A DNA stretch of 64,000 nt, taken from positions 1-64,000 of the forward strand of contig JAJFKU010000073.1 of the NCBI GenBank assembly GCA_021773035.1, written 5' to 3'. Positions 5,688 through 8,582 of the stretch are shown here, piece by piece (within the stretch, counting starts at the first letter, position 1; each line of letters begins with the position of its first letter). Below the pieces are notes generated by a model. The model had not been told where the DNA came from. It saw nothing but the letters and a program-made list of their open reading frames with translations, and made no database searches. This DNA comes from Woeseiaceae bacterium (GTDB taxonomy: Bacteria; Pseudomonadota; Gammaproteobacteria; Steroidobacterales; Woeseiaceae). Both the position numbers and the translations under genes were made by a program.

Positions 5688-6443
5688 TTGAAGAATCCTG
5701 ACCAATTCTTACTCGGAAAGCGAATCGCCATCACAGGAGCGGCCCGCGGCCTTGGTCGTGCGTTAGCCATTATTGCGGCTGACCACGGTGCAGAGCCCGT
5801 TCTCCTCGGCCGCGACCCGGCGGTTCTAAACAACGTCGCTGATACGATAAGAGCCCGTTCCGGACGCGAGTCTTTAGTCGTAGCTTGTGATCTGGCGAAG
5901 CCAGGAAGCATCACCTCAGCGTGCGAATTAACACTTGAGCACAATCCGATAATCGATGTACTGATCAACAACGGATCGCCGTGGTTGGAGGGACGTCTTG
6001 ACGAGATTTCCGACACCGACATCACTTCTACAGTTGCAGCAGCAGTATCCGGAACTATTCTCGTCACCAAGGGACTACTTCCCGGTCTCTACCGCTCGGC
6101 CGCTGCCGACATCATTACAATCATCTCGACATCCGGTGTTCCTGGCTGGGATCTCGGTGGCGGTTCGGTGCCCTTTTATGCCGCGAAACACGGTCAGTCC
6201 GGTTTCAGCGATAAACTTCGGCATGAACTGAGGGGCACGGACATTCGGGTGTCCGCGATCTACCCTCCGGACTTCGACGATGCTGACCCGACGCATGCTG
6301 GCTGGGACGACGTGCCGATTGATGGCGCGAAGATTTCGAATCGCGAGATTGTCTCTACCCTGCTTTTCATTCTGGCAACACCAAGAACATGCAGTTTTCC
6401 GATTGTGATCCTGGATGGCATGTCGCGGACATCAGATGAATAA
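5688..6443 (+). CDS. short-chain dehydrogenase/reductase
   Basis: The 251-residue product is a classical SDR enzyme with a Rossmann fold. The cofactor motif TGAARGLG lies near residue 17, NNG near 97 in place of the usual NNAG, a Ser in 'IIST' near 148, and the catalytic pair YAAK near 167. Substrate is unknown; oxidoreduction of a carbonyl or alcohol with NAD(P)H is expected. Translation starts at TTG (5688), supported by the strong AAGGAGGAGG just upstream. The 3' end overlaps the following lipoprotein gene by 8 bases, suggesting co-transcription. Confidence 0.85.
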   Translation: MKNPDQFLLGKRIAITGAARGLGRALAIIAADHGAEPVLLGRDPAVLNNVADTIRARSGRESLVVACDLAKPGSITSACELTLEHNPIIDVLINNGSPWLEGRLDEISDTDITSTVAAAVSGTILVTKGLLPGLYRSAAADIITIISTSGVPGWDLGGGSVPFYAAKHGQSGFSDKLRHELRGTDIRVSAIYPPDFDDADPTHAGWDDVPIDGAKISNREIVSTLLFILATPRTCSFPIVILDGMSRTSDE

Positions 6444-7362
6444 CCGTGAATTTCGGATGGTAGCCAAAAACTTCAGCTTTGTACTCAGCGCCCTGGCTCT
6501 CTGCGGATGTGCGATCAACTCCCAGGACGCGAAAATAATGCCCGGCGTACAGTTATCTGAATACAAAACGTTCTTCGTCATCGAGGAAGACGACGATAAG
6601 AGGAATGTTGGCGGGTCGATAGTCGACGTACTGGCGGACAAGGGGTTTAGTGCGTCAATCGGAAGCCCCACCGAGATCCCCGAGTCCACTGATATACTGG
6701 TGCGATACGATGCAAAATGGAGCTGGGATGTCACTTTTTACCTCCTCGGTCTGAATATTCGTTTTCTCGAGGCAGGCTCGCTCACGCCTCTCGCAACGTC
6801 CACGTCCGAGCATTCGTCGATAACCAGAAAAACCAGGCGCGGCATGGTTGAAGAGGTTTTGACTAACATCTTTATCGGTACTGCCGATAGTTCCAAGAAT
6901 GACTACAACGATCCGGTTGTTCTGGAAGATTTGCTGGTTAAACCAGCTGTACCGGTACCAGAGTCGCTGCCAATCAAAGTGGATATCGTTGGTTACGGCG
7001 TTCAGCTAGCTGATGATGAAACATTCGACACAGCCCTGAGAATATCCTTGGACGAACATCGTGTTTTCGATTCAATTTCCGCTGATGGAAACCACAGCTT
7101 GGTGGTCGCCCTGAATGGGCTAGAGACTAACGAAACCCACCTGGTAATATTCGGCTCGGTCATCTACCACAACGTCACAGCTGCGGCCACCTGGGTACTG
7201 AAAAGTAAGGACAGTGGAGAGGTGTTATTCGCTTCGGAAATCACTGCTGAATGCCCGGAAGAAGAACTGGGCGAATCCAGAAGCGTCACCGATAAAACCG
7301 CCTGTGCGATCAGGGAGAACCTGCGATCGGGTATCGGCGAACTGGCGTCGCTCAGGCTATAA
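6436..7362 (+). CDS. lipoprotein of unknown function
   Basis: The roughly 308-residue product has a lipoprotein signal (NFSFVLSALALCGC, lipobox LCGC). The mature part contains two similar-looking halves: 'LSEYKTFFVIEEDDDKRNVG' with a later 'DILVRYDAKWSWD', and a second half with 'VDIVGYGVQLADDETFDTAL' and 'AAATWVLKSKDSGEVLFASE'. The first half resembles DUF4136-like envelope lipoproteins, but the match is only by feel. Either ATG 6436 (overlapping the SDR stop) or ATG 6457 could start it. It probably forms an operon with the SDR gene. Confidence 0.65.
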   Translation: MNNREFRMVAKNFSFVLSALALCGCAINSQDAKIMPGVQLSEYKTFFVIEEDDDKRNVGGSIVDVLADKGFSASIGSPTEIPESTDILVRYDAKWSWDVTFYLLGLNIRFLEAGSLTPLATSTSEHSSITRKTRRGMVEEVLTNIFIGTADSSKNDYNDPVVLEDLLVKPAVPVPESLPIKVDIVGYGVQLADDETFDTALRISLDEHRVFDSISADGNHSLVVALNGLETNETHLVIFGSVIYHNVTAAATWVLKSKDSGEVLFASEITAECPEEELGESRSVTDKTACAIRENLRSGIGELASLRL

Positions 7363-7404: not shown

Positions 7405-7905
7405 ATGTTTAGATCAATATTTGCCATTTTTCTCTTTGTAATCGCGTTTGATGCATTCTCTCAGGAGAGTTTTCGGCAAATGCCGATTCACTAAGCGGTT
7501 ACCGTAATGCTCAGAGAATAATCGTCATCACAGAAGATGAAGCCATTCACTATGCACGATTCTGTGGCTTCTATGAACTTCGCGATATCTTGGTGGAAAG
7601 CGTTGACAGGGTTTCCGCTACTGTAAGCATCACAGACGCACCGATGTTCGAGATCAGGATGCTATCAAAGTCAGGTGAATACACGACTTTCGTTGGCAAC
7701 CATTGGATTAGAACAACTGACGGTACAGCGTTGCTGACAAGCGCCTCTTACGAACGCATAGTCGAATACGTGGAAAGGCGGAAAGGCGGAAAGGCGGAAA
7801 GGCCAAGGTCAGTCAAAGGAGAAGGTAAGCGGGACTATTCAGCAGATACTTGATCGCATAAATGACCCAGCGTATGTCGAAGAGAACATGTGCAAGAATC
7901 ATTGA
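7405..7905 (+). pseudogene. secreted protein gene, out of frame at two places
   Basis: Three frame segments join into one plausible protein. 7405-7460 encodes a signal-peptide-like start (MFRSIFAIFLFVIAFDAFS) that ends at a stop soon after. From about 7461 the next frame encodes 'GEFSANADSLSGYRNAQRII' through 'YERIVEYVERRKGGKAERP' (the listed ORF 7590-7853). After the GGAAAGGC repeat a third frame gives 'SGTIQQILDRINDPAYVEEN' and stops at 7903-7905. The first shift falls at a TCTCTC run, where loss of one TC restores the frame. The second could be corrected by gaining one repeat unit or losing two. No family is recognised. It may be a decayed gene, a phase-variable one, or contain sequencing errors. 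Confidence 0.5.
7772..7803 (+). repeat. four tandem copies of the octamer GGAAAGGC
   Basis: Four exact, contiguous copies of GGAAAGGC occupy 7772-7803 inside the out-of-frame secreted-protein gene. Because eight is not a multiple of three, each gained or lost copy changes the reading frame, the classic set-up of slipped-strand phase variation. The frame that looks real upstream and the one that looks real downstream differ by exactly the shift that one added copy would correct. Confidence 0.8.
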
Positions 7906-8123: not shown

Positions 8124-8582
8124 TCACCGCCTCAATTTTTCGACGAGTTCCAACAGCTCTTTTTCCTGCTCGTCATTGAGCGGGTATACGGAGCGAAAAC
8201 TGCAGCCGCGATAGGCGTCGACGGGCACCTTGAATCTCCCAGGGTTAGGTACATTCTGAGTCGGTACGTCCCTTTCGTCGAGGGCCTTGCATGGTCTGCC
8301 AAACTCGATCAGGTAGGTATTTCTGCGATCTCGAAGGATGATATGCCTCAATGTAAGAGGTTGGTTACGGAGGCTGCCAATCGGTTTGAGGGAATGAGTT
8401 TTCTCTAGTCCGGATATGACAATGAAGTCATCAATCGGGCCGTTTCTCGCAACGTCAGCTTCTTGCTCGGCAGTCGCTGCGCAACCCGCAACGAGTATTG
8501 TGACGAACAACAATGTGTTCCTCGCCGCGCCCATCTCCCAACGAGTGGCTTTAATGCGGGACAACCCATTTTTACTGTTCAT
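8124..8582 (-). CDS. DUF6491-type lipoprotein
   Basis: The product (152 residues as listed) has a hydrophobic signal ending in the lipobox LVAGC. The mature region contains 'DDFIVISGLEKTHSLKPIGS', 'IILRDRRNTYLIEFGRPCKA' and 'FKVPVDAYRGCSFRSVYPL'. The spacing of the two cysteines and the 'YLIEFGRPC' strand fit the DUF6491 family of small gammaproteobacterial lipoproteins, function unknown. A start at Met17 (8534) would give a more usual signal length. It stands alone, divergent from the gene at 8722. Confidence 0.7.
   Translation of the reverse strand: MNSKNGLSRIKATRWEMGAARNTLLFVTILVAGCAATAEQEADVARNGPIDDFIVISGLEKTHSLKPIGSLRNQPLTLRHIILRDRRNTYLIEFGRPCKALDERDVPTQNVPNPGRFKVPVDAYRGCSFRSVYPLNDEQEKELLELVEKLRR

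Follow-up and report, generated by a model that had tools for sequence, protein, structure and literature searches.

The window, by which we mean the whole 64,000-nucleotide stretch of DNA analysed here, contains near its beginning a short locus that was described in an initial annotation as a secreted-protein gene interrupted by two changes of reading frame. The features of this locus and of its immediate neighbours are as follows.

6415–7362, plus strand: intact lipoprotein-type gene, 42 nt upstream and outside the lesion (weak match to the Sbal_3080 family lipoprotein, E 1.9e-10, below cut-off)
7405–7494, plus strand: 5′ piece, with an ATG and a hydrophobic signal peptide, running out of frame to a TAA (frame analysis; its position matches the signal peptides of three relatives)
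7452–7491, plus strand: interval of the first frame change, containing TCTCTC at 7457–7462 (bounded by TGA 7449–7451 in the mature-region frame and by TAA 7492–7494 in the signal-peptide frame)
7452–7853, plus strand: mature-region frame, about 111 codons of it conserved, with its TGA beyond the array, in a tail that lacks homology (frame analysis; 57% and 47% identity to relatives; profile match)
7762–7905, plus strand: C-terminal piece in the register of the signal peptide, with homology beginning near 7789 and reaching the stop (frame analysis; profile match, E 3.4e-8)
7770–7787, plus strand: GTG GAA AGG CGG AAA GGC, a conserved V(E/D)xRKG block that holds the first two octamer copies (the block is also found, without the array, in the relatives L004, L005 and L009)
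7772–7803, plus strand: GGAAAGGC repeated four times in tandem without mismatch, two copies above the block length of the relatives (+16 nt) (Tandem Repeats Finder; alignment to relatives)
8124–8582, minus strand: small lipoprotein-type gene (weak match to DUF6491, E 5.7e-5, below cut-off)

Frame analysis indicated that the frame opened by the ATG at 7405 comprises 29 codons, reads MFRSIFAIFLFVIAFDAFSQESFRQMPIH and ends at the stop at 7492–7494. The mature-region frame is open from 7452 to 7850 (133 codons, stop at 7851–7853) and contains no ATG, GTG or TTG before 7590, while the C-terminal frame (ending ...QILDRINDPAYVEENMCKNH) is open from 7762 to 7902 in the register of the 7405 ATG, with its stop at 7903–7905. 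A profile built from the relatives matches the window copy as two separate segments (7452–7820 and 7789–7899) that lie in different frames. Because the profile splits the copy into two registers, it independently confirms the earlier description of a signal peptide, a mature region and a C-terminus read in three frames of one strand.

Homologues of the protein were found in few genomes. A search of 73 same-genus genomes returned two, 57% and 47% identical to the mature piece, and a third came from a profile search across the order (296 genomes), in a completed genome of 4.1 Mb belonging to the same family. The gene is present in 4 of 107 genomes of the family and, in a class-wide sample (n = 369), was found only in the same genus; the protein family is therefore rare and patchy in its distribution. 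The records that contain homologues include UBA1847 and an uncultured Woeseiaceae bacterium MAG. All three homologues are encoded in a single frame, with lengths of 154–158 amino acids (158 for L004, 154 for L005; L009 is also intact), and align over all three pieces in the window. They share a signal peptide, the segments IxVIT..EAIHY and C.FYELR, the V(E/D)xRKG block and a C-terminal VEE/VED...C segment. Since the relatives encode this protein in one open frame, we conclude that the pieces in the window belong to one disrupted gene, as had been proposed.

A DNA-level search of 60 relatives gave no match outside the genome itself, so the gene is detectable by protein comparison only. A contig scan queried with the window piece recovered no relatives, and an alignment query recovered only the two that were already known. 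Compared with the Pfam and NCBIfam models, the window piece, L004 and L005 gave no match at E ≤ 1. An AlphaFold model based on four sequences had a mean pLDDT of 69, and its top Foldseek match was 4r7r, a putative lipoprotein of C. perfringens (E 0.0076, TM 0.44–0.54); we considered this match too weak to assign a function and rejected it. The product is best described simply as an exported protein, with a predicted signal peptide and no recognised domain; it belongs to a small, hitherto uncharacterised Woeseiaceae family of exported proteins of about 155 amino acids. The label ‘surface protein’ given to it previously is thus not upheld beyond the signal peptide, since no known domain accompanies it.

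The octamer array was returned by Tandem Repeats Finder with a period of 8, 4.0 copies and 100% match, and is the top-scoring array of the window. Its self-match run is 24 bases long, whereas 60 simulated 64-kb Markov sequences never exceeded 14 (mean 9.7, shifts of 4–12), from which we conclude that the array did not arise by chance. It sits in the last third of the gene. At the corresponding block the relatives read GTC GAG ATG CGA AAA GGA (L004), GTC GAA AGG CGA AAA GGC (L005) and GTC GAC AAA CGC AAA GGC (L009), encoding VEMRKG, VERRKG and VDKRKG, respectively, followed directly by SG or EG. The array is absent from the block in all three, and in the window the codons 3′ of the array resume homology to the relatives' continuation. 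Because the block exists in the relatives without the array, the reading we favour is that an original pair of octamers expanded to four. Judging from these three relatives, the simplest history that we infer is that slippage added 16 nt at a near-repeat supplied by the motif's own codons. It had been suggested that the gain of one octamer, together with the loss of one TC, would restore a continuous protein of about 169 residues. Modulo three, the octamer part of that proposal is equivalent to ours; the relatives, however, favour two extra copies rather than one missing. Homologues with differing repeat numbers, which had been named as a check, did not appear: the array is in none of the three relatives, nor was it found in 72 genus mates.

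The first frame change could be placed only within the interval 7452–7491. The TCTCTC run at 7457–7462, to which it had been attributed, lies in that interval, but the window holds approximately 39 overlapping places with at least three TC/GA copies. We therefore rejected the run as a phase-variation tract, such runs being common in the window. The two lesions are about 300 nt apart and only one of them coincides with a repeat.

These observations bear directly on the possibility that the octamers act as a genuine contingency switch, in which slippage would toggle the last 35–40 residues (including the conserved VEEN-Cys), the sequenced clone would be in its off state, and the 5′ change would be a second event or a second switch. 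The array is perfect, its unit is not a multiple of three, it lies within the coding region of an exported-protein gene, and conserved coding sequence flanks it on both sides. Surveys of phase variation accept at least three copies for units of 6–9 nt (PMC5953494), a cut-off that four copies pass, and an octanucleotide array of H. influenzae ranges from 1 to 6 units and differs between strains (PMC2651432). Heptamer tracts proposed to switch coding genes of H. influenzae contain 8–14 units (PMC2651432). An uninterrupted non-triplet tandem repeat in or before a coding sequence, as expected of a phase-variable gene, is thus present at 7772–7803. The number of repeats alone, however, would not toggle between a full-length and a truncated product, given the second change within 7452–7491. 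Since that 5′ change is separate and has no notable repeat of its own, octamer slippage alone could not switch the gene on. The position of the array close to the 3′ end also argues against a switch, as variation there would alter only the tail, and no relative carries the tract.

A census of tandem arrays with units of 4–30 nt, using survey-type thresholds and covering 2.59 of 5.38 Mb (48% of the genome), returned the GGAAAGGC array as the only one with a unit not divisible by three; all others were 6-mers or 9-mers. We accordingly rejected the idea that this genome is rich in repeat switches, and see no sign in the surveyed half that the organism uses switching of this kind. The two other longest perfect arrays found each lie in an open frame: a 6-mer, AGAGCC (6.5 copies, L154 7551–7589), in one of 5.4 kb, and a 9-mer, TCCGATTTC (4.1 copies, L051 6779–6815), in one of 0.9 kb; in both cases the unit keeps the frame.

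The locus does resemble the contingency loci of H. influenzae and Neisseria, which are built on tetra-, hepta- and octanucleotide repeats, in combining a non-triplet tandem repeat with an exported-protein gene and in passing the formal copy cut-off. It differs from them in having only four copies, in their location near the 3′ end, in the second, repeat-free frame change, in the absence of the tract from every relative, and in the lack of a second non-triplet tract of 4–30 nt in half of the genome. We consider a contingency switch at this array unlikely. More doubtful still, in our estimate, is a more particular proposition: that in this free-living marine member of the Woeseiaceae the C-terminus of an exported protein is toggled by an octamer switch that is driven by slippage and grew out of conserved-motif codons. 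The original suggestion of phase variation therefore survives in part: the repeat is non-triplet, slippage-prone and above the copy cut-off, and on/off switching is not supported, in view of the repeat-free 5′ change and of the relatives without the array.

The translation start was also compared with that of the relatives. No Shine-Dalgarno-like motif precedes the ATG at 7405, while all three relatives have one, a difference that speaks weakly against a functioning switch; under the loose test used, such a motif was found in only 22 of 48 long unfiltered ORFs of the window, which makes this a weak argument.

One or both frame changes might instead be errors of sequencing or assembly and so not exist in the organism. 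The genome is a draft of 76 contigs, and low-complexity junk occurs at several contig starts. Five of these (C25 (L078), C17 (L030), C49 (L102), C46 (L099) and C10 (L023)) have C/G runs and low-complexity junk within their first 60 bases, and in three of the five CGCCCGGATCAACACC follows the run; this junk is probably artefactual, arising from assembly or from adapters at a repeated element. The poly-C/poly-G at contig starts resembles a short-read artefact, however, and short reads would seldom create indels and would easily span 32 bp. The contig is 89 kb long, with the locus 7.4 kb from its nearer end; an insertion of precisely two octamers is biological in character, and an estimated completeness of 99.99% argues against widespread frameshift errors. 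We regard an error at this site as improbable.

The persistence of a mature frame that is still open and conserved raises the further possibility that the frames are joined by programmed frameshifting, or that the mature frame is translated from a cryptic start as a shorter, new protein. Inspection by eye revealed no classical slippery heptamer at either junction, and two shifts would be required where the relatives need none. A cryptic start, for which the first ATG, GTG or TTG is at or beyond 7590, would cost the protein both its signal peptide and the conserved IxVIT..EAIHY segment. Either arrangement seems highly improbable.

We believe instead, with a probability of roughly three in four, that the locus is a recently disrupted gene (a pseudogene) carrying an indel born of slippage. 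Two features expected of a pseudogene were found: homologues that are intact (the three single-frame relatives) and disabling lesions (the two frame changes). In the sequence of events that we envisage, replication slippage on the near-repeat in the V(E/D)xRKG codons would have turned two octamers into four, a frame-shifting gain of 16 nt, while a small indel of separate origin, close to where the signal peptide is cleaved, would have parted the signal peptide from the mature domain. The ribosome-binding site would be weak or lost, and the present product would most likely be a 29-residue signal-like peptide only, or nothing. This comparison draws on few relatives, three in number and none conspecific. 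The locus resembles the frameshift pseudogenes that arise by slippage on short direct repeats, in that it combines a non-triplet tandem gain in a conserved frame with intact homologues and a second, independent lesion; it differs in nothing fundamental, although its four-copy octamer is unusually clean. A literature search on Woeseiaceae together with pseudogenes returned nothing relevant.

Frame changes aside, the mature frame is free of stops over 111 codons. Such a clean frame would also be expected of a functional or switching gene, and to that extent counts against a pseudogene. Substitutions relative to L004 are still biased by codon position (0.32/0.19/0.59), and the retention of this bias, together with the stop-free mature frame, indicates that the break is recent. 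Changes unique to the window branch are distributed 8/7/8 over the three positions, as compared to 6/5/11 for L004; these few changes offer only a hint of relaxed constraint, the numbers being too small for a test.

If the locus is such a pseudogene, it provides a clear, small case in which a codon pair that forms a near-repeat can seed a tandem expansion that breaks the frame, and it illustrates how a slippage lesion of this kind can be mistaken for phase variation. Were the array found to vary in populations, it would represent a contingency locus in the making, within a group of bacteria that is abundant in marine sediments.

A further observation in favour of the pseudogene reading is that the same genome contains a short second fragment of this family, on contig C33 (L002, G000:C33, positions 306–350), which is 82% identical and loses homology after about 15 codons. 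The tail of an rve_3 transposase (E 2.4e-18) lies at positions 3–152 of the same contig, approximately 150 nt before the fragment. From this proximity, it seems that a further copy of the family, also decayed, is present on C33.
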